From Leucobacter sp. L43 (lineage in GTDB: Bacteria > Actinomycetota > Actinomycetes > Actinomycetales > Microbacteriaceae): a DNA stretch of 64,000 bases. Within the stretch, counting starts at the first letter, position 1. Every line of letters begins with the position of its first letter. The notes under the pieces are model-generated. The model was not told where the DNA came from. It searched no databases and saw only the letters and a program-made list of their open reading frames with translations. Position numbers and translations under genes: made by a program. The stretch covers positions 930,001 to 994,000 of the forward strand of contig NZ_JAENJG010000001.1 in assembly GCF_016597785.1 (NCBI RefSeq). Direction: 5' to 3'. This document shows positions 5,368 through 31,114 of this stretch, one piece after another.

Positions 5368-5382
5368 CCGCGCCCAGCGCTC

Positions 5383-9053: not shown

Positions 9054-9054
9054 G

Positions 9055-10230: not shown

Positions 10231-10299
10231 CAAGACTTCCTTTCGTGGATACGTCATTGAATCGCTGAAAGTGCAGACGACGTCACCTTCGACGTCCTG

Positions 10300-10316: not shown

Positions 10317-10489
10317 TAGTCGGCGCCGATGCGGCACAGATCACGTTTCGAACACGATCGCTGATGCCCCTCCCGCACGGTAGACCGGTCATCGACTGTG
10401 CACGAGAGACGGCACGACTCGACGTCGCGCCTGAAAGAATGGCAGCGGTTCCCGCAAGCACTGATGCCCCGACAACGAAGGATCGATGC

Positions 10490-15227: not shown

Positions 15228-16286
15228 CTACTGCTGCGCGGTGCTCTCCCCCGCCACCAGGGTATGACCGACATCGACGATCGTGGAGGATGACGGCTTC
15301 TGGCCCGACTCGATGCGTTCGAGGAGCACGCGCCCGGCCTCCTCTCCGATTCGGCGGCTCGGCACGAGCATCGTGGTGAGCGTGGGCACGAGATGCCGCC
15401 CCACGTCGAAGCCGCCGAAGCCCGTGATGCCGATTTCGGTGGGAACCGATGTTCCGGAGCGCAGCGCCTCGAGCAGGGCTCCCGCGGCGAAGACGTCGCT
15501 CGAGAACATGATGACGTCGGCTTGCGGCAACTCAGTGCGCGCCTGGCGGAAGAGGTCGCGGCCGGCATCCATGCTGACGCCGGCCGTCCCAGAGTCGAGA
15601 ATCCGCACCGGCACTTGCGGAAAGAGGCGCCGCATCCCGTCCTCGAAGGCCGCGCGACGTCGCAGTGCGCGAACGTCGCCCCCGCTGAATTGACCTGCGA
15701 GCACGGGGAAGCGGTACCCGAGCGAGTGGACGTGCTCGACGAGCGCACTCATCGCCGCGTAGTTCGAGAAGCCGACGACTGAGTCGACGGGGTGCTGCGT
15801 GAGCTCCCACGACTCGACCACGGGAACGCGGGCCGCGCTCAACAGCGTCTGCGCGCCGGGCGTATGCTCGGTGCCGACGAGCACGATTCCGTCCGGCCTG
15901 CGTCCGAGGAAGGCTCGGAGCATCTCCTCCTCCTGCTGCAGGCTGTACTCCGTCGTGCCGATGAAGAGGTGGTACCCGTGCGGGGCGAGCACGGTCTCGA
16001 GCCCCTGCACGGTCTCCGCGAAGACGGAGGCCGACACTGCGGGGATCAGCACGGCGATCGTTCGGCTGCGATTGGAGGCGAGGTTGCTCGCTGCGAGGTT
16101 CGGCACGTAACCGGTGGATCGGATCGACGCCTGCACGCGTTCGAGCGTGTCTTCGGAGACGACCCCCGGCTGGCGGATCGCGCGCGAGACGGTCTGCGGC
16201 GAGACGCCGGCGTGCTCCGCCACTTCGGCGAGTGTCACGCTCCGGGTGGACCGCCGACTCGACCGCTTTTCGCCATCAGGGTGCAT
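15228..16286 (-). CDS. LacI-family transcriptional regulator
   Basis: A 352-residue repressor. The helix-turn-helix and hinge are VTLAEVAEHAGVSPQTVSRAIRQPGVVSEDT (about 17-47, quoted in two parts by the TLAEVAEHAGVS and TVSRAIRQP motifs), followed by a periplasmic-binding-type sensor domain. It is the last gene of the sugar-acid operon, 3 bp after the FAH gene. It probably binds the palindrome TGGCAGCGCTGCCA at 24712-24725 and controls both divergent units; the effector is likely the imported sugar or an early intermediate. Confidence 0.92.
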   Translation of the reverse strand: MHPDGEKRSSRRSTRSVTLAEVAEHAGVSPQTVSRAIRQPGVVSEDTLERVQASIRSTGYVPNLAASNLASNRSRTIAVLIPAVSASVFAETVQGLETVLAPHGYHLFIGTTEYSLQQEEEMLRAFLGRRPDGIVLVGTEHTPGAQTLLSAARVPVVESWELTQHPVDSVVGFSNYAAMSALVEHVHSLGYRFPVLAGQFSGGDVRALRRRAAFEDGMRRLFPQVPVRILDSGTAGVSMDAGRDLFRQARTELPQADVIMFSSDVFAAGALLEALRSGTSVPTEIGITGFGGFDVGRHLVPTLTTMLVPSRRIGEEAGRVLLERIESGQKPSSSTIVDVGHTLVAGESTAQQ

Positions 16287-16289
16287 CGC

Positions 16290-17489
16290 TTACCTCAGCA
16301 GTTCTCTCCTCGCCAGATTTCGCATGAGTGCCCCCACGCCGAACTCCCACGGAGCGCACGCTTCGCTGTGCGCGACCCGATTGATCAGTGTCCCCAGTGT
16401 AGGCGACGAGATGCGCACCACATCGCCGACATGGTGGGTGAAACCGGCACCGGCTTCACCCCGATCCGCCGTGGGAGCGAAGAGGGTGCCGAGGTACAGC
16501 GCTGCGCCATCGGGGTACTGGTGCTGCGGGCCGAGCAGCTGGCGCACCAGGTCCGCTGGGTCGCGGCTGATCTGCGTCATATCGGAGTGGGCTTCCAACG
16601 CGAATCCATCTGCGCCGTCCACTCTGAGCTGCACCTCGGCGCGGCGCACATCGTCGAGTGAGAATGAGGCGTCGAAGAGCCGGATGAACGGGCCGAGCGA
16701 ACCGGAGGCGGTGTTGTCTTTCGCTTTGGGGAGCAGGAGGGCGCTGCGCCCCTCGACGTCTCTGAGGTTCAGGTCGTTGCCGAGCGTCGCCCCCAGAATG
16801 CGGCCGGCGGGATCGATGATCAGCGCGATCTCGGGCTCGGGGTTGTTCCAGCTCGACGTCGAGAGCACGCCGATCTCGCCGCCGGTGCCGACGGAGGCGA
16901 GCACCGGGCACTTGGTGAAGATCTCGGCGTCAGCGCCGATGCCGACTTCGAGGTACTGGCTCCACAACCCCTGCTCGATGAGGTAGTCCTTCAATTTCAG
17001 GGCTTCGTCGGAGCCCGGCTCGATCGCGCTGAGATCGCCGCCGATGACGTCGAGCACCTGAGCTCGCACGCGTGCCGCCTCGTCTGCGTTTCCCCGTGCA
17101 CGCTCTTCGATGACCCGCTCGATCATCGAGACGGCGAAGGTCACACCGGCCGCTTTGACGCACTGCAGGTCGATCGGCGACAGGAACGTCACCTCGTCGA
17201 TCTCGCTCTGCATCGTCGCCGAGAGAATGCGGTCGGCGGATCCGAGCGACGCTCCCGCCGCGCGCCGCGCCGCCGCAGCTGGATCGGCTTCGAGCATGAG
17301 GTCGCTCACCGTCGCGAACGCATGCGAGAGGTCGTACACGTCGTCGGCGGTCACGAGCACGGGGCTGGGGCCGGAGACCGCGGGATCCCAGACGCGGCCG
17401 ATGAGGGTCGCCGAGGCGTGGTCGCGCGGAAGGGTCTCGGCGAGGCTCGCCGGCCAGGAGCGGGTCAGCGGTGCGGTCGATGCGGTCAT
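16290..17489 (-). CDS. fumarylacetoacetate hydrolase-family protein, probable 2-keto-3-deoxy-pentonate dehydratase
   Basis: A 399-residue FAH-fold protein. The segment FTKCPVLASVGTGGEIGVLS followed by WNNPEPEIALI resembles 2-keto-3-deoxy-arabonate/xylonate dehydratases (XylX/AraD1 group), which dehydrate 2-keto-3-deoxy pentonates to alpha-ketoglutarate semialdehyde. The metal-binding Glu residues are probably in the NPEPE stretch. The matching next enzyme, KGSADH, is present in the divergent unit (29588-31114). ATG at 17489 is chosen for AGGA upstream; a TTG two codons earlier is possible. Hydrolase activity on other acylpyruvates cannot be excluded. Confidence 0.78.
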   Translation of the reverse strand: MTASTAPLTRSWPASLAETLPRDHASATLIGRVWDPAVSGPSPVLVTADDVYDLSHAFATVSDLMLEADPAAAARRAAGASLGSADRILSATMQSEIDEVTFLSPIDLQCVKAAGVTFAVSMIERVIEERARGNADEAARVRAQVLDVIGGDLSAIEPGSDEALKLKDYLIEQGLWSQYLEVGIGADAEIFTKCPVLASVGTGGEIGVLSTSSWNNPEPEIALIIDPAGRILGATLGNDLNLRDVEGRSALLLPKAKDNTASGSLGPFIRLFDASFSLDDVRRAEVQLRVDGADGFALEAHSDMTQISRDPADLVRQLLGPQHQYPDGAALYLGTLFAPTADRGEAGAGFTHHVGDVVRISSPTLGTLINRVAHSEACAPWEFGVGALMRNLARRELLR

Positions 17490-17516
17490 GATCAATCCTG
17501 TTCGTTCGGGTCTTGG

Positions 17517-18317
17517 TCAGCGTCCGCGGAAGACGCCGTCGCGGCGCTCGGCGAAGGCGCGGCGCCCCTCAGCCGCGTCCTCCGTGGCGAACGTGATGGC
17601 CTGGAGGTCGCGCTCGTATGCCATCGCCTGGTCGTGCGGCAGGTTGTAGGCCGCCCTGATGTTCGCCTTCGCGGTCTCGACGGCGATCGGCGGCCGGGAG
17701 GCGATGGTCGATGCGAGTTCGCGAGCTCGCTCCATCAGACGCTCCCCTGGCACGACCTCGCTCACGATGCCCCAGCGCAAGGCGGTCGCGGCATCGATCA
17801 TGTCCCCGGTCATCGTCATGACGGCGGCGTTACTCGGGCCTGCGGCCGCCGAGAGGAATGCGCTCATGCCGCCCCCGCCGATCCAGCCGAGCTTCACCTC
17901 CGGCGCTGCGAACTGCGCCGTCTCGGCCGCGATGCGGATATCGCAGATCAACGACGTCTCGAGCCCGCCCCCCAGGGCGTACCCGTTGATCGCCGCAATG
18001 ATCGGCTTGCGCAGTTCGTGCAGCGCGTCGCAGTAGTCCATGCGATTTCGAAACTGCCACGGGGTCGCGTAGTCGTCGAGCGTGCGAATATCGCTGCCCG
18101 CGCAGAAGGCGCGGTCGCCGGAGCCGGTGAGGATCACGACGCGAACGCTCGGATCGTCGTTCGCCGCGTGCGCGATCTGCTCGAGGGTGCGCGACATGTC
18201 GGGCGTGACGGCGTTGAGCTTCTCGGGGCGCTGCAGGGTGACGGTGAGCACGAAGTCGTCGAGCGCGACCCCGACCTGATCGGTGGCGAAGTCGGTGATG
18301 GCGGTGATGGCGTTCAT
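17517..18317 (-). CDS. enoyl-CoA hydratase/isomerase (crotonase) family protein
   Basis: A 266-residue crotonase-fold protein. Oxyanion-hole segments FCAGSDIRTL and AINGYALGGGLETSL are present. The first catalytic Glu position is kept in APEVKLGW, but the second Glu of classical hydratases appears replaced by Val in the TMTGD region, so it may be an isomerase, decarboxylase, hydrolase or lyase instead of a plain hydratase. It directly follows a solute-binding-fold gene and a CoA-transferase gene in one operon, so its substrate is probably the CoA ester made by the latter. ATGA overlap upstream. Confidence 0.85.
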   Translation of the reverse strand: MNAITAITDFATDQVGVALDDFVLTVTLQRPEKLNAVTPDMSRTLEQIAHAANDDPSVRVVILTGSGDRAFCAGSDIRTLDDYATPWQFRNRMDYCDALHELRKPIIAAINGYALGGGLETSLICDIRIAAETAQFAAPEVKLGWIGGGGMSAFLSAAAGPSNAAVMTMTGDMIDAATALRWGIVSEVVPGERLMERARELASTIASRPPIAVETAKANIRAAYNLPHDQAMAYERDLQAITFATEDAAEGRRAFAERRDGVFRGR

Positions 18318-19453
18318 CGGTTCCCTTTCAGTGCGGCGGCGCGTGAATCACGAGCCAGTCTTCCGAGGCGCGCAAGAGCCTCGCGCGGTGCGAGTTCCCC
18401 CGAGAGGGCGCTGCGCACCAGCTCGGATCCGGCGAGTTGAGCGGCAGGGAAGCCTGCGTAGCGCGGGCGCACGCTCGCGGCCTCGATGGTGTCGCGAGTG
18501 CTCGAATAGAACGCCCCTGCGCGATCGTCCACCTCGCGATCCGCCCATGCCCCGGCGAGCGCCGGCTGACCCTCGAACTCCGGAATCACTCGGCGCTGGG
18601 TGCTCGGAGCGACGAGCCACCTGAGGTACTCGCGCAGGCCATCGGTGACCTCGGCACGTCGGCTGACCGCGACGCCCGTGCCCCCGATCATCGACCCGAT
18701 GGGACCGCCCCGCACCGCGCGAGGAGCGTCCCCGAACGCGACGGGCGCCTCGTTCCCGCGGCGCGAGTAATTGACGTACCCGTAGACGAGGGGCACGAAG
18801 GCGAGGGGATCATCGGAGCCGACGCGCTCGAGCAGACCGATCGGATTGATCCGGTCGTAGCCAGGAGCCGACCGCGCCTGCACCGCGCGGAGCACCTCGA
18901 GCGCATCGAGCGCCTCGCGATCCGGCACCCAGGCCTCGCCCGCCTCATCGACGGGTGCAGCTCCGAGTGCCGCGACCACGGAGAAGAATGTGAGCAGCGC
19001 GTGCGGCCCGGAGAGGCTCAAGGCCACGGGAACGTCGGCTGCGAGGCGCTCCACGTCTTCCCAGGTCTCAGGAGCTGCGGCCACGAGACGGCTGTCGCGT
19101 GCGCTCACCTGTGTCGCAGCATCGATCGGAAGCGCCCAGGTGCCGCCATCGCCCCGATAGGAGCGCAGGGAGGGCCCGACGTAGCGTTCGGAGAACAGCG
19201 GATCGTCATCGCCCAGCACGGACTCGAGCGACTGCAGTGCTCCGTTGCGGAGTGCGTCGCCGATGTGCGGATGGTCGAGCACGATGAGGTCGTACTCCGC
19301 AGCGAGCTCATCGATCGGGTGCGCTTCGAACCCCTCGAGCGGCTGCGCATCCCAGGAGACATCGACACCGCGTTCGCGCCAGAGCACGGACGCCGCTTCG
19401 AGCCAGACCCGGCCCCTGGGGTGATCCCACGTGAGTCCGCGAAAGCCGGTCAC
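18314..19453 (-). CDS. solute-binding-fold protein without signal peptide
   Basis: A 379-residue protein resembling family 1 extracellular sugar-binding proteins (LTWDHPRGRVWLEAASVLW, then YDLIVLDHPHIGDALRNG, and a C-terminal helical part), but it begins directly with the first strand of the fold. There is no signal peptide or lipobox and no hydrophobic stretch, so it should stay in the cytosol. Genes overlap by 4 bp on both sides (GTGA with the CoA-transferase gene, ATGA with the crotonase gene), so it is made with these enzymes. No permease partner of its family is adjacent. A sensor, carrier or recruited enzyme role is possible; function unknown. Confidence 0.7.
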   Translation of the reverse strand: MTGFRGLTWDHPRGRVWLEAASVLWRERGVDVSWDAQPLEGFEAHPIDELAAEYDLIVLDHPHIGDALRNGALQSLESVLGDDDPLFSERYVGPSLRSYRGDGGTWALPIDAATQVSARDSRLVAAAPETWEDVERLAADVPVALSLSGPHALLTFFSVVAALGAAPVDEAGEAWVPDREALDALEVLRAVQARSAPGYDRINPIGLLERVGSDDPLAFVPLVYGYVNYSRRGNEAPVAFGDAPRAVRGGPIGSMIGGTGVAVSRRAEVTDGLREYLRWLVAPSTQRRVIPEFEGQPALAGAWADREVDDRAGAFYSSTRDTIEAASVRPRYAGFPAAQLAGSELVRSALSGELAPREALARLGRLARDSRAAALKGNR

Positions 19454-20670
19454 GGCGTCTCCAGGGCCTCGTCGAGCTGTGCCACGACGCCGGATGAGAC
19501 GAGGCGGTCGACGTCGGCGCTCGATACCCCGATGCCAGCGAGGATCTCGCGGCTGTGCTCACCGGTCTGCGGGGCACCGCGGGTGACCGAGGGAGGGGTG
19601 AGCGAGAACCGGTACGGGAAACCCGGGGTCTTCACGCGCCCTTCCGTGGGGTGCTCGTACTCCACGAAGGTGCCGTTGTGGGCGATCTGCGGATCGTTCA
19701 CCAGGTCTTCGTACGAGTAGACCGGGCCGGCCCACACGCCTCGCTCGGCGAACAGGGTCAACCACTCGGCGCTCGTGCGTCGCTCCAGCGCCTGGGCGGT
19801 ACGGGCGAAGAGTTCGTCGCGCATGCTCCACGCAGCGTGCTCGTCATCGAGGCCGCGCAGCGAGTCGTCGTCGAAGAGATCGGCGAGCACGTCGAGCGAT
19901 GGGAACGCGAGCACGATGTACCCATCCTGCGTGCGGAAGGAGCCGTAGGGTGAGCGAATGTACACGTGCGCGTGCGGCTGCGCGGTGCGCTTCTGCGGCA
20001 CGTTGCCGACGGTGTACACCGAGAGCTCCTGCATCTGCAGCGTCGTGATCGCGTCGAGCATGTTGACCGTGACGAGCTGCCCCTCGCCGGTGCGCTCCCG
20101 ATGCAGCAGTGCCGCGAGCACGCCCTCGAACGCGGTCGAAGCCGTGACGGCGTCCGCGAGGTACTGTCCGGCGGCCTGCGGAGGCTGACCGACGGCCCCC
20201 GTCGAGAGCATGGCCCCCGACATCGCCTGCAGCAGCAGATCCTGACCCGGCCGGTCCCGGTACGGGCCGTCTTCGCCGTACCCCGAGATCGAGACGTAGA
20301 CGATCGACGGGTTGATGGCGCGCAGGGACTCGTAGTCGACTCCGAGTCGCTTCGCGACTCCCGGGCGATAGTTCTGCAGGAAGACGTCGGCCTCTGCGAC
20401 CAGCCGGTACAGCAGCTCGCGCCCTTCCTCGTTCTTCAGATTCAGTGCGAGCGAGCGCTTGTTGCGGTTGAGCGACAGGAACGACACGTTCACCTTGTTG
20501 CCCGTGACGCCGCCGGCCGGGGTGTGGCGCTGCCACTCCCCCGTCGTCGGTTCGACCTTGACGACGTCTGCCCCGAGATCGCCGAGGCGCTGGGCCGCGA
20601 ACGGTCCTGCCATCGCGATCGAGCAGTCGAGCACGCGATAGCCGCTCAGCACACCTGATGGGGTGGTCAT
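19450..20670 (-). CDS. class III (CaiB/BaiF) CoA-transferase
   Basis: A 406-residue family III CoA-transferase. The N-terminal GYRVLDCSIAMAGPFAAQRL and DLGADVVKVEP are typical. The nucleophilic Asp is Asp144 in RPGQDLLLQAMSG. Such enzymes move CoA between carboxylic acids such as formate/oxalate or carnitine derivatives. In this operon it is embedded among sugar-modifying enzymes and precedes the signal-less binding protein and a crotonase, implying that a sugar-derived acid is activated as a CoA thioester. The actual acid is unknown. Confidence 0.9.
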   Translation of the reverse strand: MTTPSGVLSGYRVLDCSIAMAGPFAAQRLGDLGADVVKVEPTTGEWQRHTPAGGVTGNKVNVSFLSLNRNKRSLALNLKNEEGRELLYRLVAEADVFLQNYRPGVAKRLGVDYESLRAINPSIVYVSISGYGEDGPYRDRPGQDLLLQAMSGAMLSTGAVGQPPQAAGQYLADAVTASTAFEGVLAALLHRERTGEGQLVTVNMLDAITTLQMQELSVYTVGNVPQKRTAQPHAHVYIRSPYGSFRTQDGYIVLAFPSLDVLADLFDDDSLRGLDDEHAAWSMRDELFARTAQALERRTSAEWLTLFAERGVWAGPVYSYEDLVNDPQIAHNGTFVEYEHPTEGRVKTPGFPYRFSLTPPSVTRGAPQTGEHSREILAGIGVSSADVDRLVSSGVVAQLDEALETP

Positions 20671-21806
20671 GCGGTTGCCTCTTTTCTGGAGATGGACTGC
20701 ACGCGCGATCGCGCGGCAGCAGTGGCTTCTGGCCCGTCGAGCAGGGTGATCGATGTGCGATACGTCCGGGATTCGCCGTGCTCGAGCCAGATCATCGTTC
20801 CGTCTTCACGTGCGGCCGCCTCTCCGCTGACGTGATGCGTCGACGGTTCGAGGCCGACGCCGTACTGACCCTCGCGCAGGTTCTGCCACTCGAAGAAGTG
20901 CGGCATCGCCGAAGCGTCCCAGTCGATCTCGACGCCGAAATTCCCGTCGCTCCTGAGGAGTGCGACGCGATGCCTGCCGTCCTGGCCGGCCGAGAGCTCA
21001 TGCTCCCAGACCTGCTCGACGAAGTGACGCTCGGGCGCGATGAGCCGATCGTGCGGGGCGCCCTGCTCGTCGACCGAGTCTGATTTCCAGACGTGGCGTT
21101 GGATGGCCCCGTGGAACTCGGAGCCCTCGTCGACCACCGGCCATCCGACGTTGATGTGGTACAGGAACATGTGCGGAGTGCGCTCGAACCCGAGGTTCTC
21201 CACCTCGTCGTCGATGCGGAAGCCGCTGCCGAAGACATCGACCTCGATGGTGCGACGCAGCCGCAGGTGCTCGCCGAACGAGGTGGCCTGGACGACCTCT
21301 CCCCGAACGCGCAGCACTCCGCCGTTCTCCTGCCACTCCTCGTCGACGGAGAGGAGCCGTGCAGGCAGTGAGCTGAGGCGCCCATGCAGGCCGTGTCGCA
21401 CGGTCTGCTTCGGCGGGTAGTGGTAATGCGTCGCGTCGTATTCACCGCCGAACAGGGCGTGGTCGAGCCCGCCGCTGACGAGGAATCCGTCGAGTGTGCG
21501 GAGCCAGGCGAGGCCGTCCTCCGACTCGACCTCGTGCAGCGAGGGGTGACGATACCCGTTGCCCGAGCGCCACGAGACCGGAACGCCCCGGTACCGCACG
21601 TCGCCGATGTCGAAGGCGCGGTCGATGAGCACTTCGATCTCGAGTCCGTCGGCATTGCGGATCTGCAGGGAGCGCACACCGCGCTCCTGCCCGTTCGACC
21701 GCACCACCTCGCGAATCTCGGCGAACGCCGCGAGGTCTCCGGTGCGCCGCCGCAGGTGGCTCGTGGATTGCTGCACGGCGTCGCCGTACCAGTCTCGCGC
21801 GCTCAT
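20667..21806 (-). CDS. DUF4432 aldose-1-epimerase-like protein
   Basis: A 379-residue protein of the DUF4432 group, related to galactose-mutarotase-like beta sandwiches. Motifs include VLIDRAFDIGDVRYRG, a His-rich HYHYPPKQTVRHGLHGRL and the carboxylate-rich end LEPSTHHVSG. It could interconvert anomers of an imported sugar or of a keto-sugar intermediate. The start at 21806 overlaps the SDR stop by 4 bp; an in-frame ATG four codons upstream is weaker. Catalytic role for this subfamily is not established. Confidence 0.78.
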   Translation of the reverse strand: MSARDWYGDAVQQSTSHLRRRTGDLAAFAEIREVVRSNGQERGVRSLQIRNADGLEIEVLIDRAFDIGDVRYRGVPVSWRSGNGYRHPSLHEVESEDGLAWLRTLDGFLVSGGLDHALFGGEYDATHYHYPPKQTVRHGLHGRLSSLPARLLSVDEEWQENGGVLRVRGEVVQATSFGEHLRLRRTIEVDVFGSGFRIDDEVENLGFERTPHMFLYHINVGWPVVDEGSEFHGAIQRHVWKSDSVDEQGAPHDRLIAPERHFVEQVWEHELSAGQDGRHRVALLRSDGNFGVEIDWDASAMPHFFEWQNLREGQYGVGLEPSTHHVSGEAAAREDGTMIWLEHGESRTYRTSITLLDGPEATAAARSRVQSISRKEATA

Positions 21807-22564
21807 TCCATCACCCATCCGCCGTCGACGTTGATCGTCTGACCCGTCACGAACGAGGCGTCGTCGCCGACCAGGAATGAGACGACGGACGCCAGTTCCT
21901 CGTTGCGACCGCGTCGCTTGATCGACTGCTTCTCGATCACCGTGCGGTTGTAGGTCTCCGGGTCGCCGTTGATCTCCTCCGCCTTCGTGGGGAAGGCGCC
22001 CGGCGAGACCGCGTTCACCCGCACGCCGGTCGGCCCGAGCTCGCGCGCGAGGGAACGGGTGAGGCCGACCGCCGCACCCTTCGTCGACACGTAGCTGACG
22101 AGGTGCTCCCAACCGCCGTGGAACGTGATCGAACCGATGCTCACGATCGAGCCCGTGCCGCGCGGCACCATCCGCCGTGCAGCGGCCTGAGACCCTGCGA
22201 AGTAGGCGATCTGGTTGACGCGCAGCACCTCCTCGTACTCGGCGAGCGGAATGTCGAGGAACGGGGTCGCCGGGTAGATCGCGGCGTTGTTGACCATCGC
22301 CTCGAGCGGCCCGAGCTCGCGCTCCACGCGCTCCACGGCTGCGTCGATCGCCGGGGTGTCGCGCAGATCGAGGTCGACGACGAGGTTCCGGATCCCGTGC
22401 TCGTCGAGCAGGGAAGCCGTTTCGCGGAGCGTCTCTCCGTCGCGGCCGACGATGCCGACCGCGAAGCCGTCTTGTCCGAGCCTGAGGGCGATCGCGCGCC
22501 CGAGGGCGCCACCCGCTCCGGTCACCAGAGCGGAGCGGGTGGCGGATGCTGCAGGGGTCGTCAT
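21803..22564 (-). CDS. short-chain dehydrogenase/reductase
   Basis: A 253-residue classical SDR. NAD(P) site TGAGGALGRAIA (about 15-26), NNAA, catalytic Ser in SIGSITFHGG and YVSTK with Tyr and Lys, and the C-terminal TGQTINVDGGWV. It probably oxidises or reduces a hydroxyl group of the sugar or sugar acid handled by this operon. 2-bp gap to the isomerase gene upstream and ATGA overlap downstream. Confidence 0.9.
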   Translation of the reverse strand: MTTPAASATRSALVTGAGGALGRAIALRLGQDGFAVGIVGRDGETLRETASLLDEHGIRNLVVDLDLRDTPAIDAAVERVERELGPLEAMVNNAAIYPATPFLDIPLAEYEEVLRVNQIAYFAGSQAAARRMVPRGTGSIVSIGSITFHGGWEHLVSYVSTKGAAVGLTRSLARELGPTGVRVNAVSPGAFPTKAEEINGDPETYNRTVIEKQSIKRRGRNEELASVVSFLVGDDASFVTGQTINVDGGWVME

Positions 22565-22566
22565 GC

Positions 22567-23481: not shown

Positions 23482-23525
23482 GGTGGAGGTGCTCCTTTGC
23501 GTTCCTTGGTGGGGTGTGTTGCGTG

Positions 23526-24638
23526 TCAGAGAGTGAATTCGTCGAGCCGCACCGCCCGGCGCTCGTCGAGCGACCGGTAGCCGGCTTCGATCAGCGCCAT
23601 CGTGCGAACATTGTCGGCGACGGTCAGCGCCGGGGCGTCGCCGCTGTCGAGCGCGTGCTGCACCTGCTCCATGACGCCGATGAAGGCGTGCGGGAACCAG
23701 TGCGTCTCCCACTCCGGCGACACCCACTTCCCGTCGGTCTCGTGCGCTGATGCGAAACTGATCGTGGACGGCTCGCCGGTGGGCCAGCCGATCGTGCCGC
23801 GCGCGACTCCGGCGGTGCCTTCGACCCGCCAGGAGATGAAGAAGTCGGAGTCGTAACCCGCTTGACGCGGCCCGCCCCAGACATCCTCGCGGGAGACGGC
23901 GAGCACTCCGTTGTCGAATCGCAGCGTCGAGGCGACGATTCCGTCGGTGTGCGCGAACTCGGTGCGCGGGTCGGGTCGACCGGCCGTGTAGATCTCGGTC
24001 GGCTCGCCGAAGAGGTACCGCAGTGCGTCGAGATGGTGCACGCTCATATTGGCGAGCGTCAGGCGGTCGTACTCGGCGAGGAATGTCTGCCAGTGCGGCA
24101 CGGCGTGCATGTCGATGGCCGCGAAGACCGGTTCGCCGAGCGCACCGCGATCGAGCAGTTGTTTCAGCGATCGGATCGACTGGTCGTAGCGCATGTTCTG
24201 ATTCACGGAGAGGATCTTCCCCGCTGCGGCGGCCTCGTCGCGGAGCGCGATCGCTTCGTCCAGTGAGAGAGCGAGCGGTTTCTGGGCGAGGATGGCGCGC
24301 ACGTGCGGCTGTGCGAGAGCGAGGCGGATGAGCTCGGGTTGCGTGTCCGGCGGAAAGGCGATGTCGACGATTTCGATGCGAGGATCGAGAATCAGGTCGC
24401 TCGGCGAGTCGTGCACCGTTTCGATGCCGTATCGCTCGGCCACGGCCGTGGCGTTCGCGCGGGTGCGGGACGCGATGGCGACGACGGGGAACCCGGCGAT
24501 CCGGTACGCCTCGAGATGCTGATCCGCCATGATCGCCCCTGCTCCGATTGCTCCGATCGCGTGGGATCGCGAGCGGATCCGCGCGTCGGGTTCGAGGCCG
24601 AACGACTCCGCCGTCTGCTCTGTCACCGCTGATGTCAT
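23526..24638 (-). CDS. Gfo/Idh/MocA-family dehydrogenase
   Basis: A 370-residue NAD(P)-dependent dehydrogenase. Rossmann motif IGAGAIMADQHLEA (about 31-44), the family Lys in AQKPLALSLDEA and the catalytic-domain motif MSVHHLDALRYLFG. Relatives oxidise a hydroxyl of free sugars, inositols or glycosides. As first gene of the nine-gene minus operon it probably carries out an early oxidation of the imported sugar. ATG at 24638 is preceded by GAGGAAG; the 16-residue upstream extension lacks a ribosome-binding site. Confidence 0.88.
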   Translation of the reverse strand: MTSAVTEQTAESFGLEPDARIRSRSHAIGAIGAGAIMADQHLEAYRIAGFPVVAIASRTRANATAVAERYGIETVHDSPSDLILDPRIEIVDIAFPPDTQPELIRLALAQPHVRAILAQKPLALSLDEAIALRDEAAAAGKILSVNQNMRYDQSIRSLKQLLDRGALGEPVFAAIDMHAVPHWQTFLAEYDRLTLANMSVHHLDALRYLFGEPTEIYTAGRPDPRTEFAHTDGIVASTLRFDNGVLAVSREDVWGGPRQAGYDSDFFISWRVEGTAGVARGTIGWPTGEPSTISFASAHETDGKWVSPEWETHWFPHAFIGVMEQVQHALDSGDAPALTVADNVRTMALIEAGYRSLDERRAVRLDEFTL

Positions 24639-24711
24639 CTGCACTTCCTCCTTGAAGTTCGCGCCGTTGGGCGCCGCGGCCATCATGTCACATTTGTTAT
24701 GTTAGCGCTCT

Positions 24712-24725
24712 TGGCAGCGCTGCCA
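24712..24725. promoter_or_regulatory. LacI-type operator between divergent sugar operons
   Basis: TGGCAGCGCTGCCA is a perfect 14-bp palindrome with the central CG and AGCGCT core seen in LacI-family operators (CebR-type sites are TGGGAGCGCTCCCA). A second AGCGCT core lies 12 bp away at 24704-24709. The site overlaps a possible -35 (TTGGCA at 24711) for the plus-strand transporter genes, with TAGTGT 18 bp on. The LacI protein at 15228-16286 is the obvious ligand. Confidence 0.75.
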
Positions 24726-24847
24726 TTTTGATGTTAGTGTCACCACGCAGCGCTCGTCAACACGTTCTCGAAACCACGCGGAAACGTCCCCGGCATCGAA
24801 GCCCCAGGCGGCGCAGCACCTCGCAGTTTGATTTCAAAGGAGAAAGC

Positions 24848-25921
24848 ATGCAGCACTCACGCACCATCGCACGCGGCATCGGCATCGCGGCGATTGCGGC
24901 ACTCTCGGTCAGCCTCGCGGCCTGCAGCTCGGCACCCGCCGAGGGCGGCGGCAGCGCCGCCGAGGACGGGTCCGACGACGGAACGTTCGTCATCGGGTTC
25001 CAGCAACCACTCGGCGGCCAGGCCTGGCGCGAAACCGGGCTCGCAGCGATGCAAGCGCTCGCCGCTCGGGACTACGGCGACAAGGTCGAACTCAAGATCG
25101 TGCGCACGAACGACAACGACGCCGCGCAGCAGAACGCGGCGATCCAGAACCTGATCGCCGAGGGCGTCGACGCGATCCTCTTCGATCCGGCCTCGGCCAC
25201 CGGTGCCGACGCAGCGATCTCCCAGGCGAAAGCCGCGGGCATTCCGGTCTTCGCCAACGGCGGCCCCTACGACAACGAGTACGTCTACACGGTATCCACC
25301 GACTGGGCGAGTGCCGGTAAGACCGGTGCGGAATGGCTGGTCTCGCAGCTCGGAGACAACAAGGAGGTCGTCGTGCTCGAGGGCGTCGCCGGCGTGCCGC
25401 TCAACGACACATCGATGCCCACCGTCACGGAGGTGCTCGAGGAGGGCGGCGCCACCATCGTCGCCGAGGGCGCGAACGGCTGGAATGAGGCGGACGCGCA
25501 GCAGACGATGGCGCAGATCCTCCAGTCCCACCCGGACGTCGGGGGCGTGTACTCGTTCCTGACCGGCGGTCAGGGCGTACCCGCTGCCTTCGCCGACGCC
25601 AATATCGATTTCGTGCCCGTCGTGGGCGGCTCGGGCTACAACGGAGAGGCCTGCACCCTCGTCGACAACGCCGAAGCCGGGCTCAGCGGAAACATGGTGT
25701 TCGGGCACCCCGCGATCTACGCGAAGGGACTCGAACAGGCCGTGCTGCTGCTGGAAGGCGAGGAGATCGAGCAGGAGCAGTACTTCCCGCCGGCCGAGAT
25801 CACCACCGAGAACGCGGAGGAGTTCTGCCAGCCGGATATGCCGGACAACTTCCAACTCGGGTACGACTTCCCCGGTCTCGATATCACGCTCGAAGAGTAC
25901 CTCGAGTTCGCGAAGCAGTAA
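24848..25921 (+). CDS. sugar ABC transporter substrate-binding lipoprotein (RbsB-type)
   Basis: A 357-residue lipoprotein. The signal peptide ends in the lipobox LAAC with Cys26, followed by an Ala/Gly/Glu/Asp linker. The mature part is a type I periplasmic sugar-binding fold (Peripla_BP_4): VIGFQQPLGGQAWRETGLAA, then AIQNLIAEGVDAILFDPASA and GIPVFANGG. AAAGGAGA precedes the ATG. First gene of the plus-strand transporter operon; the ligand is likely a sugar, sugar acid or glycoside rather than ribose in particular. Confidence 0.9.
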   Translation: MQHSRTIARGIGIAAIAALSVSLAACSSAPAEGGGSAAEDGSDDGTFVIGFQQPLGGQAWRETGLAAMQALAARDYGDKVELKIVRTNDNDAAQQNAAIQNLIAEGVDAILFDPASATGADAAISQAKAAGIPVFANGGPYDNEYVYTVSTDWASAGKTGAEWLVSQLGDNKEVVVLEGVAGVPLNDTSMPTVTEVLEEGGATIVAEGANGWNEADAQQTMAQILQSHPDVGGVYSFLTGGQGVPAAFADANIDFVPVVGGSGYNGEACTLVDNAEAGLSGNMVFGHPAIYAKGLEQAVLLLEGEEIEQEQYFPPAEITTENAEEFCQPDMPDNFQLGYDFPGLDITLEEYLEFAKQ

Positions 25922-25947
25922 TCGGTCGAAAGGGCGGGAGCATCAGC

Positions 25948-27498
25948 ATGTCCCAGCACACGGGTACGGTCGGCGCCGCAGACGCGGCGCCGACCGACCG
26001 TTCTGCGCCACTCGTCGTGGCGCAGAACCTCAATAAGAACTACGGCCCCGTACAGGCGGTGGTGGGCGTCGACTTCACCTGCCACGCCGGAGAGGTGCAC
26101 GCACTCGTCGGGGAGAACGGAGCAGGGAAGAGCACGGTCTCGAAGATGCTCTCCGGCGCGGTCGTCCCGTCGAGTGGTTCCATCACCATCGACGGACGCC
26201 CCCTGCAGGGCGGCAGCATCGCCCGCGCCCGGAGCCTGGGCATCGCGTGCGCGTACCAGGAGATCGCGCTCGTACCGGAGTGGACCGTGGCCGAGAACCT
26301 CGCCCTCCCCGAAGTGGGCACGGCGCGCGTCTACTCCCCCGCGAAGGCTCTGCGTCGGGCGAAAGAGATCCTGGAGCAGCTGCATCTCCCCCACATCGAC
26401 CCGCACGCCCGGCTCGGCACCCTGCTCCTCGCCGATCGCCAACTCGTCGAGATCGCCCGGGCGATCGCGGCGCAACCCAAGCTGCTGATCCTCGACGAGG
26501 CGTCGAGCGCCCTGACGCCCCCCGGCGTCGAGTGGCTATTCGACCGCATCCGCGAGGTCACAGCCGGCGGCAGCGCGGTCATCTACGTGACCCATCGCCT
26601 GCAGGAGCTCCAGGTGATCGCGGACCGCGGCACGGTGCTGCGCGACGGCGCCCCGGTCGGGACGTTCACCCGCGGCGAGTGGGACGAGGATCAGCTCATC
26701 TCGATGATGGCCGGGCGCGCTACTCAGAAGCAGTTCCCTCCCGCACCCGTCGTCGCCGCAGACGCCCCCGTAGCCCTCGAAGTGCGCAACCTGCAGTCCC
26801 CGCGCCTCACCGACGTCTCCCTCCGCGTCCGTGCCGGTGAGATCCTCGGCATCGGCGGCTTGCAGGGCCAGGGCCAGACCGAACTCCTGCGGGCCCTGTT
26901 CGGCGCCGTGCCCGCCACGGCCGATACCTGGGAGATCGGGGGATCGCCGGTCGGCGCCCTCAACCCGCGACGCGCGGTCAAAGCGGGCATCGGCTACGTT
27001 CCCGAGGACCGCAAAACGGAGGGCCTCGCACTCGAACTCGGTGTCGGCGAGAACCTCTTCGCTCCGTGGCTCAGGCTCTTCGGCGCTGGCGGCGCACCGC
27101 AGCTGCGCAAGGAGCGCGGCTGGATCGACGGCGTGCTCTCAGCGCTCAGCGTGCGCACCCGCGGACCGCAGGAGTCGGCCGGCGCGCTCTCGGGCGGCAA
27201 CCAGCAGAAACTCGTCTTCGGCAGATGGATGGATCGCGGACGCCGCGTGCTCATTCTGCACGATCCCACGCGCGGCATCGACGTGCGGGCGAAACAGGAG
27301 CTCTACCGCGCCATGGTCGCGCTCGCCGAGCAGGGCGTCGGCATCGTCTGGTTCTCCAGCGAGGTCGAGGAGCTCGTGCACATGTGCAACCGCGTCGCCG
27401 TGCTCTACCGCGGCGGCGTGGTGCAGGAACTCGTAGGAACGGACATCACCGCTGACGCTGTCGTCGGCGCCGCGGTGGGAATGGCGGCACACTCATGA
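25948..27498 (+). CDS. sugar ABC transporter, double ATPase (RbsA/MglA-type)
   Basis: A 516-residue protein of two fused ABC domains. Domain 1 has Walker A GENGAGKST near 56-64, and a non-standard signature TLLLADRQLVEIARAI before ILDEASSAL. Domain 2 has the degenerate Walker A GLQGQGQTELL usual in this family and signature LSGGNQQKLVFGRW; its Walker B is ILHDPTRGID with His-Asp where Asp-Glu is common, so domain 2 is probably the inactive or weak site. Overlaps the permease gene by 4 bp. Confidence 0.92.
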   Translation: MSQHTGTVGAADAAPTDRSAPLVVAQNLNKNYGPVQAVVGVDFTCHAGEVHALVGENGAGKSTVSKMLSGAVVPSSGSITIDGRPLQGGSIARARSLGIACAYQEIALVPEWTVAENLALPEVGTARVYSPAKALRRAKEILEQLHLPHIDPHARLGTLLLADRQLVEIARAIAAQPKLLILDEASSALTPPGVEWLFDRIREVTAGGSAVIYVTHRLQELQVIADRGTVLRDGAPVGTFTRGEWDEDQLISMMAGRATQKQFPPAPVVAADAPVALEVRNLQSPRLTDVSLRVRAGEILGIGGLQGQGQTELLRALFGAVPATADTWEIGGSPVGALNPRRAVKAGIGYVPEDRKTEGLALELGVGENLFAPWLRLFGAGGAPQLRKERGWIDGVLSALSVRTRGPQESAGALSGGNQQKLVFGRWMDRGRRVLILHDPTRGIDVRAKQELYRAMVALAEQGVGIVWFSSEVEELVHMCNRVAVLYRGGVVQELVGTDITADAVVGAAVGMAAHS

Positions 27499-28517
27499 CC
27501 ACCGGCACCATCTTCGCTCCGGTCGCACGGCGCACCGCGCTCCCGATCTGGATCCAGCGATCGATCCACGAGGGCGCGGCCCCGCCCGTCGTCGCCTTCG
27601 TCCTCTTCATCGCCGTCTACCTCGCCGTGAACCCGAGCCTGCTCACGCGATTCCAGCTGCAGTCAGCGGCCAACCTCGTCGTTCCGCTCGCGATCGCAGC
27701 GCTCGCGCAGCTCATGATCGTACTCATCGGCGGCATCGACATCTCCATCGGAGCGGTCATCAGCCTGTGCAACGTGGTCTTCGCGACGAGTCTCGCCGGG
27801 CTCCCCGGCCCCGTGGCACTGATCGTCGCCGTCCTCGTCGGAGCCGCGTGCGGCGTCTTCAACGGCCTCCTCGTCGCGTTCGGCGGACTTCCGGCGATCG
27901 CGGTGACGCTCGCGAGCACCTTCATCATCGGCGCGATCGCGCGCACCATCCTCGATCGCCCGGGAGGGGCGCTCAGCGAGACGATCTTCAACGTGACGAG
28001 CGGAGAGGCGCTGCCATTCCTGCCGATGGCGATCGTCTGGCTGGTCATCGCCGGAGTCGCCGTCTGGTTCGTGCTGCAGCGGACCGCCTTCGGCCGCCAG
28101 ATCTACGGCGTCGGATCGAACCGCGACGCCGTGCAGGCCGCCGGCATCAACTCGCGGCTCGCGATCCTCGGCGCATTCGTCCTGTCGGGGGTGCTCGCCT
28201 CGATCGCTGCAGTGCTGCTCGCCGGGTCGACGGTGACCGGTGACCCGCGCAGCGGCGATCCGTACCTCCTCACGTCGATTGCAGCCGTAGCGCTGTCGGG
28301 TGCCAGCTTCGCAGGCGGACGGGGCTCCGTGCTCGGCACCATCGCCGCCGCGATCATCCTCGGCCTCGTCGGAAACCTGCTCTTCTTCGCCGGCATCAAC
28401 TCGTACTGGCAGTACATCATCAACGCGCTCATCATCTTCGCGGTCGTGGCGATCCCCGTACTCGTCCGCATCATCAGCACGCGAAAGTCGCTCGCGCAGG
28501 GAGGCCACCATGACTGA
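27495..28517 (+). CDS. sugar ABC transporter permease 1 (RbsC-type)
   Basis: A 340-residue membrane protein with about nine or ten hydrophobic segments, the GGIDISIGAVISL motif typical of RbsC/BPD_transp_2 permeases, and ALSGASFAGGRGSVLGTI near the end. It starts with ATG overlapping the ATPase stop and ends 8 bp inside the next permease gene. Two different permeases imply a heterodimeric channel. Confidence 0.92.
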   Translation: MTTGTIFAPVARRTALPIWIQRSIHEGAAPPVVAFVLFIAVYLAVNPSLLTRFQLQSAANLVVPLAIAALAQLMIVLIGGIDISIGAVISLCNVVFATSLAGLPGPVALIVAVLVGAACGVFNGLLVAFGGLPAIAVTLASTFIIGAIARTILDRPGGALSETIFNVTSGEALPFLPMAIVWLVIAGVAVWFVLQRTAFGRQIYGVGSNRDAVQAAGINSRLAILGAFVLSGVLASIAAVLLAGSTVTGDPRSGDPYLLTSIAAVALSGASFAGGRGSVLGTIAAAIILGLVGNLLFFAGINSYWQYIINALIIFAVVAIPVLVRIISTRKSLAQGGHHD

Positions 28518-29502
28518 GACGCTCACCGACGCATCCTCCACGGCTGCCAGAGGGCAGGCGACCAGTGCGCTGAAGCGGGTCCCGACGAGCGCATGGGTCT
28601 TCGCGGCGTTCATCGCCCTGTTCCTGCTCAGCGGTCTGATCCGCCCGAGCCTGCTGACGCTCGACGGGCTGATCACGACGGTCACCTTCGCATCCATCCT
28701 CGCGATCGCCTCATTCGGGCAGACGATCGCGGTGATCCAGGGCGGCATCGACCTCTCAGTGCCCAACACGATCGCGTTCGCCGCGCTCTCGTTCCTCACC
28801 TGGAATGCGAGCCTCGGCCCGGTTCTCGCGCTCATCGCGTCGCTCGCGGCGTCCGCAGTGATCGGATTCATCAACGGCTTCGTGATCGCACGGATCGGCC
28901 TCACGCCGATCGTGACCACGATCGCGATGAACGGTCTGCTCTTCGGCGTGCTGCTGTTGAACTTCAGCCTCTCGGAGCTCACGAACGTTCCCGAATTCCT
29001 GAAGTCGATCACTGCCGAGAAGATCCCGTTCCTCGGCTCCTCCATCGCGGCGGTGGTGCCGCTCGCGCTCGTGCTCATGCTCGTGCTGCACGCGCTGCTG
29101 CGCTGGACCGGATGGGGGCGCGCGCTCTTCCTCGTCGGCTCGTCCGAGGCCACCGCGAACCTCGCCGGGCAACCCGTCGCCCGCATCCGCATCACCGGGT
29201 ACATGCTGAGCAGCGTGCTCGCCGGATTCGCCGGCATCGCGATCGTCGGCTTCTACAACCAGGCCGAAACGATGATGGGTGCGCCCTATCTCCTGAGCTC
29301 GGTCGCGGCGGTCGTCGTCGGCGGCGCCTCGATCTTCGGCGGCCGCGGTTCCGTGCTCGGCACGCTGGCAGGCGCCCTCGTCCTCGGCCAGGTCTCGACG
29401 CTCGTGGTCGTCTTCAACCTCGGCGTCGCCGTGCAAGACATGGTCTACGGGGCGATCATCCTGCTCGTCGTCGCCCTGTACGGCCGATCGCATTCCCGCT
29501 GA
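28510..29502 (+). CDS. sugar ABC transporter permease 2 (RbsC-type)
   Basis: A 330-residue paralogue of the preceding permease, with GGIDLSVPNTIAF in place of the first permease's motif and GGASIFGGRGSVLGTL near the C-terminus. The ATG at 28510 overlaps the previous gene by 8 bp. A hairpin 5 bp after the stop separates it from KGSADH copy 2, which probably belongs to the same transcript. Confidence 0.92.
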   Translation: MTETLTDASSTAARGQATSALKRVPTSAWVFAAFIALFLLSGLIRPSLLTLDGLITTVTFASILAIASFGQTIAVIQGGIDLSVPNTIAFAALSFLTWNASLGPVLALIASLAASAVIGFINGFVIARIGLTPIVTTIAMNGLLFGVLLLNFSLSELTNVPEFLKSITAEKIPFLGSSIAAVVPLALVLMLVLHALLRWTGWGRALFLVGSSEATANLAGQPVARIRITGYMLSSVLAGFAGIAIVGFYNQAETMMGAPYLLSSVAAVVVGGASIFGGRGSVLGTLAGALVLGQVSTLVVVFNLGVAVQDMVYGAIILLVVALYGRSHSR

Positions 29503-29506
29503 GCGC

Positions 29507-29547
29507 CGGCCGGGGCAGCGCGGCAATCCAGCCGACGCCCCCGGCCG
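29507..29547 (+). terminator. stem-loop between permease 2 and KGSADH copy 2
   Basis: CGGCCGGGG (29507-29515) pairs with CCCCGGCCG (29539-29547) around a 23-nt loop. No T tract follows, so a partial terminator or mRNA-stabilising hairpin that sets the KGSADH level is more likely than a full stop. Confidence 0.45.
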
Positions 29548-29587
29548 ACACCTCTCCCACCCACCCCGATTCCCGGAGGAACCCTCG

Positions 29588-31114
29588 ATGACCCCCGCAC
29601 CCCCCACGCTTTCTCCTGATCTTGAGGCCGTCATCGCACGCGCCACCACCGCCGCACCCCACCTCGCCACCACCACCGCCACCCAACGAGCACGAGCCCT
29701 CGTCGCCATCGCCGACGCCCTCGAAACCGCAACACCCGACCTCGTACACATCGCACTCCGCGAGACCGGCCTCACCCAAGCCCGACTCACCGGCGAAGTC
29801 ACCCGCACCGCCGTCCAACTCCGCCTCTTCGCCGACACCATCGTCGACGGCGGCTACCTCGACGCCCGCATCGACCCCGCAGACCCCGACTTCGCCCTCG
29901 GCCAACGCCCCGATATCCGCCGCACCCACATCCCCCTCGGCCCAGTCATCAACTTCTCCGCCTCCAACTTCCCCTTCGCGTTCTCCGTCATGGGCGGCGA
30001 CTCCGCAGCGATCCTCGCAGCAGGATGCCCACTCATCGTGAAAGCCCACTCCAGCCACCCAGACCTCTCCGACGCCACCGCGGAAGTCGCCACACGCGCA
30101 CTCACCCAAGCAGGCATGCCCGAAGGCACCTTCCAACTCATCCACGGCCGCGAAGCCGGAGTGCAGGTCTTGCAGGACCCCCGCATCAAAGCCGGATCCT
30201 TCACCGGCTCCATCCGCGTCGGCCGCATCCTCGCCGACATCGCCGCGAACCGGCCAGCACCCATCCCGTTCTTCGGAGAACTCGGCAGCGTCAACCCCAT
30301 CTTCATCACCGCCGACGCCATCACGGAACGCGCCGACGAGATCGCCACCGGCTACCTCGCCAGCGTCGCAGGCTCCGCCGGCCAGCTCTGCACCAAGCCC
30401 GGCTTCGCATTCATCCCCGCAGGCAGCGCACTCCCCCAGGCCATCACCCACAACACGACCGACGTCCCCGAGCATCGCCTCCTCGACCCCCGCATCGCGA
30501 AATCCTACGACGAACGCCGCACCGCCGTACTGGGCACCGCCGGAGCGAACCCGCTGATCCCCGGCGGCATCCGCTTCGACGACGACGGACAGGGCTGGGC
30601 CACCCCCACCATCATCGCGATCAGCCTCGACGACTTCCGAACCGGACGCGACACCCTCCTCGAAGAATCCTTCGGCCCGCTCTCCATCCTCGTCGAAACC
30701 CCCACCGGCACCGACCTCGCAGCCCTCATGCCCGAGTTCTACGAAGGCAACCTCTCCGGCACCCTCCACATCAGCGAAGCCGAAGCCACCGGAGAAACCG
30801 ACAACGCCCCCCAACTACGCGCCCTCATCGCCGCCCTCGCGAACCAAGTCGGCCGCGTCCTGTTCAACGGCTGGTCCACCGGCGTCGCCGTCACCCCCGC
30901 CCAACAGCACGGCGGCCCCTGGCCCGCGACAACGAACGACTCCTCCACCTCCGTCGGCACCGCAGCCATCACCCGCTTCCAACGACCCGTCGCCTACCAG
31001 AACGCACCCCAAGCACTCCTCCCCGAAGCACTCCAAGACACCAACCCGCTAGGCATCCCCCAACACATCAGCCCAGCAGGCCAATCACACCACTGGGGCA
31101 CACGCTGGCACTAA
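29588..31114 (+). CDS. alpha-ketoglutarate-semialdehyde dehydrogenase, copy 2
   Basis: A 508-residue aldehyde dehydrogenase, identical to the product of 10490-12010 except for its first few residues (MTPAPPT against MTHEA) and Ile238 for Val236. Glu231 and Cys268 are the expected catalytic residues. GGAGGA precedes the ATG. It follows the sugar transporter and would take the semialdehyde made by the FAH-family dehydratase to 2-oxoglutarate. Each copy has kept its own 5' end and promoter context, so the copies are probably regulated separately by substrate. Confidence 0.88.
   Translation: MTPAPPTLSPDLEAVIARATTAAPHLATTTATQRARALVAIADALETATPDLVHIALRETGLTQARLTGEVTRTAVQLRLFADTIVDGGYLDARIDPADPDFALGQRPDIRRTHIPLGPVINFSASNFPFAFSVMGGDSAAILAAGCPLIVKAHSSHPDLSDATAEVATRALTQAGMPEGTFQLIHGREAGVQVLQDPRIKAGSFTGSIRVGRILADIAANRPAPIPFFGELGSVNPIFITADAITERADEIATGYLASVAGSAGQLCTKPGFAFIPAGSALPQAITHNTTDVPEHRLLDPRIAKSYDERRTAVLGTAGANPLIPGGIRFDDDGQGWATPTIIAISLDDFRTGRDTLLEESFGPLSILVETPTGTDLAALMPEFYEGNLSGTLHISEAEATGETDNAPQLRALIAALANQVGRVLFNGWSTGVAVTPAQQHGGPWPATTNDSSTSVGTAAITRFQRPVAYQNAPQALLPEALQDTNPLGIPQHISPAGQSHHWGTRWH

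Follow-up and report, generated by a model that had tools for sequence, protein, structure and literature searches.

How might a bacterium carry a sugar acid to 2-oxoglutarate without a conventional sugar-acid dehydratase? This question is raised by a locus of Leucobacter sp. L43 (positions 15228–31114 of the window, the 64,000-nucleotide stretch of contig NZ_JAENJG010000001.1 that we analyzed), in which a first-pass annotation had proposed a pathway combining coenzyme A (CoA) activation with a Weimberg-type ending. The genome spans 3.15 Mb and is 99.86% complete. The locus consists of two divergent units with one promoter region between them. The minus-strand unit encodes, in order, a Gfo/Idh protein, a TIM-barrel protein, a short-chain dehydrogenase/reductase (SDR), a DUF4432 protein, a class III CoA-transferase (19450–20670), a protein that we call cSBP (18314–19453), a crotonase (17517–18317), a protein of the FAH superfamily and a LacI-family repressor. 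The plus-strand unit encodes a ribose-type ABC importer followed by an aldehyde dehydrogenase. Each gene that the first-pass annotation listed was present where it had been placed, but cSBP had been overlooked. We see an even chance that a CoA-dependent, carnitine-like dehydration replaces the usual sugar-acid dehydratase here, in a Weimberg-type route to 2-oxoglutarate. With the gene starts that we chose (alternatives are possible for DUF4432, at 21818, and Gfo/Idh, at 24686), four bases are shared at the SDR/DUF4432, DUF4432/CoA-transferase, CoA-transferase/cSBP and cSBP/crotonase junctions. The same gene order was found again in distant genera.

To characterize the overlooked member, we combined profile searches with structure prediction. 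cSBP gave weak matches to Pfam solute-binding families, under the gathering cut-off, and had no match in NCBIfam. Its AlphaFold model (pLDDT 94.3) and a Foldseek search of that model predict a two-lobe binding-protein fold. SmoF, MalE3 and a trehalose/maltose-binding protein were matched at about 15% identity, with a probability of 1.00 and a template-modelling score of about 0.8 to 7yzs, 6dtq and 1eu8, and a profile search agreed on sugar-binding proteins. Unlike these ABC sugar-binding proteins of the same fold, cSBP appears to be leaderless, is translated overlapping the CoA-transferase and has invariant residues of its own. In a 15-residue hydropathy scan its peak value was 0.32, versus 2.27 for the importer's own binding protein. 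The same scan, at a threshold of 1.8, detected a hydrophobic N-terminus, as expected of an export signal or lipoprotein anchor, in none of 109 family rows, the homologues among which begin at the start of the tblastn match. In annotated relatives, the cSBP coding sequence overlaps the end of the CoA-transferase gene by 4 bases (L145, L146, L147, L148 and L149) or begins 2 bases behind it (L144). cSBP is thus probably cytosolic.

Thirteen residues were invariant in all 109 rows (W9, R13, W34, D55, D60, H61, Y99, D111, Q286, Q296, W303, R329 and Q339), and the family carries the motifs GLTWDHPRG and DHPH. DHPRG and DHPH follow the first and third strands of the model, positions at which binding proteins usually contact their ligands. 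Because of the invariant charged residues and the missing leader, we favor an active intracellular role for cSBP, with the acid or the CoA ester formed from it as the target; a passive carrier is the alternative. cSBP would then be a former sugar-binding protein that now serves as an intracellular enzyme or substrate carrier. There are precedents for a solute-binding fold turned enzyme, namely cyclohexadienyl dehydratase, itself a dehydratase, and MqnA. Neither was among the 26 sequence matches of cSBP or the 50 Foldseek matches listed. As far as could be seen from the literature searched, the cSBP family has no earlier description.

We next examined the distribution of cSBP. It was detected (E ≤ 1e-20) in 48 of 299 genomes of the host's family, its own genome counted. 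Among 591 contig stretches matching the gene pattern, at least 439 encode a cSBP relative. The best 80 of these, which formed our set of named records, come from Actinomycetota and Alphaproteobacteria, together with three records from Acidobacteria and one from Verrucomicrobiota; the nearest named relatives are Leucobacter, and records very near the window genome may be left out. A further search matched 145 plasmid records at E ≤ 1e-30. One stretch of a replicon of the betaproteobacterium Variovorax paradoxus encodes Gfo/Idh, TIM-barrel, aldose-epimerase-like, LacI and SDR proteins, an importer, CoA-transferase, cSBP, crotonase and FAH protein.

Within about 10 kb of cSBP (less where contigs end; presence was scored by identity thresholds), the best 80 loci contained the CoA-transferase in 78 cases, the crotonase in 76, SDR in 63, DUF4432 in 61, FAH in 54, the TIM barrel in 38, Gfo/Idh in 37 and the aldehyde dehydrogenase in 24. 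We then added 28 loci from other genomes of the host's family, giving 108 loci, all picked by cSBP. A CoA-transferase lay within 6 kb in 106 of them, and a crotonase or a MaoC hydratase likewise in 106. Directly adjacent on the same strand (<300 bases) were the CoA-transferase in 97 (76 + 21) and the hydratase in 99 (76 + 23). The idea that the CoA genes are bystanders was rejected on this constancy. As the first-pass annotation had proposed, both the CoA-transferase and the crotonase are members of the unit, linked to sugar-type genes (SDR, DUF4432 and FAH); in these cSBP-carrying loci they did not turn up as parts of an unrelated unit.

A few loci depart from this trio of CoA-transferase, cSBP and hydratase. 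In L137 (9264–11935), cSBP is followed by an aldehyde dehydrogenase, no CoA-transferase was found in the stretch, and a crotonase lies 8.8 kb off on the other strand. L134 (8478–10795) has two tandem class III CoA-transferases behind cSBP, perhaps forming a heteromer. In L143 (pSymB of Sinorhizobium meliloti 1021, a record without annotation, which gave no lead to the sugar), a CoA-transferase match in two pieces stands beside cSBP, no hydratase was matched and a fuconolactonase-like match lies about 10 kb away; the related strain in L146 has a single annotated CoA-transferase gene there.

We then asked whether the two enzymes flanking cSBP retain their catalytic residues. The counts for these two, and that given below for the catalytic cysteine of the aldehyde dehydrogenase, cover rows with ≥90% coverage and an identity of at least 40%, or at least 30% in the case of the aldehyde dehydrogenase. 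The CoA-transferase has a CoA_transf_3 domain and was matched by phmmer to succinate-hydroxymethylglutarate CoA-transferase (2.2e-67); the catalytic Asp173 of class III enzymes was present in 81 of 81 rows. The crotonase (Pfam ECH_1) aligned with enoyl-CoA hydratases and 3-hydroxypropionyl-CoA dehydratase, and both catalytic glutamates, Glu120 and Glu140, were kept in 78 of 78 rows, that of the window included. The same two families occur together in carnitine metabolism, where the class III CoA-transferase CaiB and the crotonase CaiD act on a 3-hydroxy acid as its CoA ester. The locus shares with CaiB/CaiD both families, the kept catalytic residues and the chemistry that we propose, and differs in substrate class and in that MaoC can replace the crotonase; we know of no cSBP in a carnitine operon. 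The window CoA-transferase scored higher against the succinate/glutarate model (230.5 bits) than against CaiB (156.1 bits), and both carnitine-specific models stayed under their cut-offs (PRK03525, 156.1 of 413 bits; PRK03580, 168.5 of 500 bits).

The replacement of crotonase became apparent among the more distant cSBPs, which adjoin a CoA-transferase of 35–40% identity and a protein of about 150 residues; the three of these proteins that were scanned are MaoC dehydratases. Hidden Markov model searches assigned crotonase alone to 82 of the 108 loci, MaoC alone to 25 and both to one (L093), leaving no locus without a hydratase. After checking, the counts were 81, 24 and one, with two doubtful loci: L137, which was counted among the 82 crotonase loci and has no label in the LG+G4 tree, and L139, which was counted among the 25 MaoC loci and labelled MaoC in both trees although its match lies in a shadow frame and was missed by two other scans. 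On the cSBP tree, the crotonase/MaoC label switches five times. Starred branches force five switches under LG+G4, which carried a long-branch warning, and four under a mixture model, from which L137, L134, L133, L138, L103 and L067 had been left out. The firmest isolated switches are L057, in a set starred at 100 with two crotonase relatives, and L090, while L125 and L098 are long branches. In L057 and L125, which lack crotonase, MaoC accompanies FAH, aldehyde dehydrogenase, CoA-transferase and cSBP. The D-x4-H pair is present in one MaoC copy of each of the 24 firm MaoC loci and of L093, 25 loci in all. In the second MaoC copies of L120, L122, L131, L132 and L136, valine replaces the catalytic histidine, which suggests a possible two-subunit hydratase. 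Because crotonase and MaoC have unrelated folds and both hydrate enoyl-CoA esters, hydration or dehydration of a CoA ester appears to be the activity that matters.

These enzymes could instead degrade an acyl side group or short acid released from an imported compound, with the FAH protein and aldehyde dehydrogenase handling the sugar part separately. The family names, succinate/glutarate CoA-transferase and enoyl-CoA hydratase, do not by themselves point to sugars. An AMP-binding gene of the acyl-CoA ligase type, a possible alternative way of charging CoA, also lies near the module in L046 (14599–16170), and clustering by sequence places one in L071 and L094 as well. However, the gene tables of L144, L145, L147, L148 and L149, which are incomplete, list no thiolase or acyl-CoA dehydrogenase, and a sugar is indicated both by the fold of cSBP and by the frequent occurrence of dehydrogenases and importers of sugar type. 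We regard this explanation as improbable.

Does the genome encode a conventional sugar-acid dehydratase elsewhere? The Weimberg pathway shares with this locus an importer, a dehydrogenase and, as predicted here, an FAH-type 2-keto-3-deoxy-D-pentonate dehydratase; its final semialdehyde dehydrogenase, leading to 2-oxoglutarate, would have a counterpart if the aldehyde dehydrogenase of the locus is the presumed one. The place of its IlvD- or enolase-type dehydratase would be taken here by the trio of CoA-transferase, leaderless binding-protein fold and hydratase of CoA esters. We searched the window genome for four sugar-acid-dehydratase families, further families lying outside the search, and found no protein of that function. 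Its one ILVD_EDD protein is the branched-chain IlvD (TIGR00110, 733.8 bits; cut-off 618.15), which reached 432 of 882 bits against the L-arabinonate dehydratase model. Its three MR_MLE_C matches are two o-succinylbenzoate synthases, over the cut-off, and enolase, and no dehydratase of the UxuA or the altronate/galactarate type was detected. Thus neither the locus nor the whole genome holds an IlvD- or enolase-family sugar-acid dehydratase, in agreement with the absence noted earlier. In the relatives, a search of 96 loci (L031–L126, with L131–L142 outside it) found IlvD only in L034, plus a fragment in L105. The L034 protein is 84% like the housekeeping IlvD, and this locus, which has no enolase-type dehydratase, encodes FAH and aldehyde dehydrogenase besides the trio, along with a Gfo/Idh2 protein and one of the metallo-beta-lactamase fold. 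FAH and aldehyde dehydrogenase occur without an enolase-type homologue in 20 of the 82 crotonase loci and alongside one in 7.

The end of the route is suggested by the FAH protein and the aldehyde dehydrogenase. The FAH protein (16290–17489, minus strand) has E220, E222, D246 and K259, identical in 57 of 57 rows including the window; by our count, the counterparts of E220, E222 and K259 in the compared chain are residues 143, 145 and 182. By homology and by these invariant residues, it is a predicted 2-keto-3-deoxypentonate dehydratase of the Weimberg type. In one study (PMC7374468), all 2-keto-3-deoxy-D-pentonate dehydratases are annotated as FAH-family and all their L-counterparts as DHDPS-family, so an FAH protein here suggests a D-configured C4. 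The aldehyde dehydrogenase (29588–31114, plus strand; Pfam Aldedh) matched the NADP enzymes 3v4c (3.4e-98) and 1eyy (2.2e-96) in phmmer, and its catalytic cysteine was present in 22 of 22 rows. It had been labelled a 2-oxoglutarate semialdehyde dehydrogenase (KGSADH). The gene is there, but it reached the cut-off of no NCBIfam KGSADH model, and the specific label, which we keep as a presumption, reflects family resemblance.

Taking these parts together, the route that we infer, with its reactions, sugar, CoA donor and cSBP role, would proceed as follows. The importer would bring in a monosaccharide, which the TIM-barrel, Gfo/Idh, DUF4432 and SDR proteins would adjust and oxidize, in an order that is not fixed, to a pentonic-type sugar acid. 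The class III CoA-transferase would then put CoA on the acid; the probable donor is succinyl-CoA, the other option being the product, as with CaiB. The nearest relatives of the transferase use succinyl-CoA, and the 2-oxoglutarate formed by the route would yield it in the tricarboxylic acid cycle. The thioester would acidify the hydrogen at C2, so that the crotonase, or MaoC in relatives, could remove the C3 hydroxyl. The resulting 2-hydroxy-enoyl-CoA would ketonize to a 2-keto-3-deoxyacyl-CoA, which would return its CoA. Finally, the FAH protein would form 2-oxoglutarate semialdehyde and the aldehyde dehydrogenase 2-oxoglutarate. Crotonase and MaoC hydratases usually act syn. If they do so here, crotonase types would be suited to acids of (2S,3S) configuration, for example D-lyxonate, and MaoC types to those of (2R,3R) configuration, for example L-rhamnonate or D-ribonate; these assignments were worked by hand and serve as a guide only. 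More tentatively, and with greater doubt, the trio may be a general three-part machine for CoA-dependent dehydration of sugar acids, with the cytosolic binding protein as a catalytic or presenting subunit and a hydratase slot filled by crotonase or MaoC.

Several observations weigh against a CoA-dependent dehydration route. The main one is that the trio has MR_MLE (enolase-type) homologues as neighbors in 22 of the 82 crotonase loci and in 17 of the 25 MaoC loci, which would put a conventional dehydratase within reach there; in our reading, they may have a role separate from the trio. The FAH gene is missing near 26 of 80 loci. In 22 genomes searched, covering 23 of these 26 loci, nine have no FAH protein at E ≤ 1e-40 and 13 have one elsewhere. 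Only 24 of 80 loci have a KGSADH-like gene in their vicinity, and the upstream enzymes differ between loci. The loci were all picked by cSBP, with no random-locus control, and eight cSBP pairs are ≥90% identical. On the chemical side, 2-keto-acyl-CoA intermediates would be unusually reactive, and the CoA-transferase would have to accept a polyhydroxy acid, which we only suppose.

The MR_MLE homologues also fit a different division of labor, in which the trio clears a chemically blocked acid beyond the reach of ordinary dehydratases, for example a 2-O-methylated or branched one, by dehydration and re-hydration in which the blocking group is lost, beside an enolase-type dehydratase that handles the unmodified sugar. 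Some loci of sphingomonads, Streptomyces and Kribbella, moreover, contain L-rhamnose mutarotase, proteins of the beta-helix or GH28-like kind or a small FAH protein resembling 2,4-didehydro-3-deoxy-L-rhamnonate hydrolase, neighbors that fit complex plant glycans with mixed sugars and hence count for this explanation. On the other hand, an enolase-type homologue is absent from the surroundings of 60 of the 82 crotonase loci, the MR_MLE matches of the window genome itself are the synthases and enolase described above, and no demethylation or methanol/formaldehyde genes stood out in annotated relatives, where no dedicated search was made. We consider the clearing of a blocked acid rather unlikely.

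The 25 MaoC loci have further genes of their own, namely a fuconolactonase-like amidohydrolase (21 loci), an aldo-keto reductase (16) and a small FAH protein (5). One such amidohydrolase reached 155.2 of 400 bits against the L-fuconolactonase model, and one small FAH protein 258.9 of 500 bits against that of 2,4-didehydro-3-deoxy-L-rhamnonate hydrolase. We read these extras as a probable neighboring route of the fucose or rhamnose type; a joint pathway is possible, since the 1.3 Mb genomes of L131 and L132 carry all of these genes close together in a single stretch. As a separate observation, beta-helix, GH28-like, GH2 or L-rhamnose mutarotase genes adjoin the module in L059, L065, L097, L107, L110 and L149, which come from sphingomonads, Asticcacaulis and Streptomyces, a hint that the sugar may derive from plant glycans. 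L097 (8615–9418) also encodes a protein of about 268 residues with no Pfam match at 1e-5; its cluster, c63, shares the stretch with a D-2-hydroxyacid dehydrogenase in all eight alphaproteobacterial loci that hold it.

We then considered the enzymes that would prepare the acid. The Gfo/Idh/MocA dehydrogenase (23526–24638, minus strand; Pfam GFO_IDH_MocA) matched many Gfo/Idh structures. The TIM-barrel protein (22567–23481, minus strand; AP_endonuc_2, PF01261; model pLDDT 89.2) is isomerase/epimerase-like, with a fold like those of ketose 3-epimerases, YcjR and 2-hydroxy-3-keto-glucal hydratase; the fold search singled out no single activity. Such a pair could mark a pathway of the 3-keto-glycoside, levoglucosan or inositol type, with the FAH protein as a carbon-carbon hydrolase, and Gfo/Idh structures from such pathways were indeed matched, as was the fold shared with YcjR and the glucal hydratase. 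However, of the 80 loci only 37 have Gfo/Idh nearby and only 38 the TIM barrel, and the levoglucosan and inositol dehydrogenase models lay far below cut-off; for levoglucosan dehydrogenase and disaccharide 3-dehydrogenase, NF052479 gave 47.7 of 650 bits and NF058563 19.9 of 650 bits. We consider a pathway of this kind very improbable. Given the same two counts, the pair was rejected as pathway-defining and looks like an optional entry step.

The SDR oxidoreductase (21803–22564, minus strand; Pfam adh_short_C2) is a likely sugar dehydrogenase. The DUF4432 protein (20667–21806, minus strand; PF14486) is aldose-1-epimerase-like, a possible mutarotase or lactonase, and its relatives are annotated as "aldose 1-epimerase family". 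Among the 80 loci, which include related and hence not independent ones, 58 have DUF4432 alone, 13 a lactonase-type gene alone (PF10282, metallo-beta-lactamase fold or fuconolactonase-like), three both and six neither. The two rarely coincide, so DUF4432 may serve the lactone stage or make a lactonase unnecessary. The usual lactonase had been reported as absent; this holds for the window locus and not for the relatives that carry a lactonase-type gene.

Both units are likely to be regulated together. Between them lies a perfect 14-base palindrome of the LacI-operator type, TGGCAGCGCTGCCA (24712–24725), found by sequence scan, which is likely an operator shared by both units and a putative target of LacI. 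It has a single match in the 3.15 Mb genome at ≤1 mismatch, versus 9 per strand for a reversed-pattern control; in the window alone, ≤2 mismatches gave one further, weaker palindrome match. TGGYAGCGCTRCCA was present in 11 other loci of 150 fetched, besides the re-fetched own copy (L150). A looser scan between the starts of the binding-protein and Gfo/Idh genes found a palindrome in 8 of 13 divergent relatives, the version in L036 being unlike the rest. The repressor, encoded by the last gene of the minus-strand operon (15228–16286; Pfam LacI and Peripla_BP_3), has GntR/IdnR as its top NCBIfam relatives, below cut-off.

The importer is of the ribose type (CUT2) and is encoded on the plus strand by genes for a lipoprotein solute-binding protein (24848–25921; Pfam Peripla_BP_4), an ATPase (25948–27498; Pfam ABC_tran in two stretches), a first permease (27495–28517; Pfam BPD_transp_2) and a second permease (28510–29502), the last assigned from its translation and from homologues in relatives. 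The second permease had been placed at 28593–29591, an open reading frame that we rejected as a shadow frame with no Pfam match. Every match of the importer to its closest structures was weak, and no ligand was obtained from them. Elsewhere in the window, 532–12010 contains genes for an ABC importer of the branched-chain type and a second aldehyde dehydrogenase, together with a protein of the ornithine cyclodeaminase family and FAD and pyridine-nucleotide oxidoreductases, a cluster that we take to resemble hydroxyproline breakdown, likewise ending in 2-oxoglutarate semialdehyde.

On balance, the interpretation first given to this locus is partly supported. No description of the module was found in the open-access literature searched (titles and abstract starts, with one broad search sampled in part); as far as could be seen, the families of its parts are known, and their combination and the third member are undescribed. 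To our knowledge, sugar-acid dehydration is thought to need metal-dependent enzymes, either iron-sulfur proteins of the IlvD/Edd family or Mg-dependent enolase types. If the proposal is correct, a widespread CoA-ester route would be a further chemical solution to this reaction, one that would surprise specialists, and would explain many clusters annotated merely as "CoA transferase / ABC substrate-binding protein / enoyl-CoA hydratase". cSBP would add another binding protein recruited into metabolism, and leaderless "ABC substrate-binding proteins" would not always be for transport.

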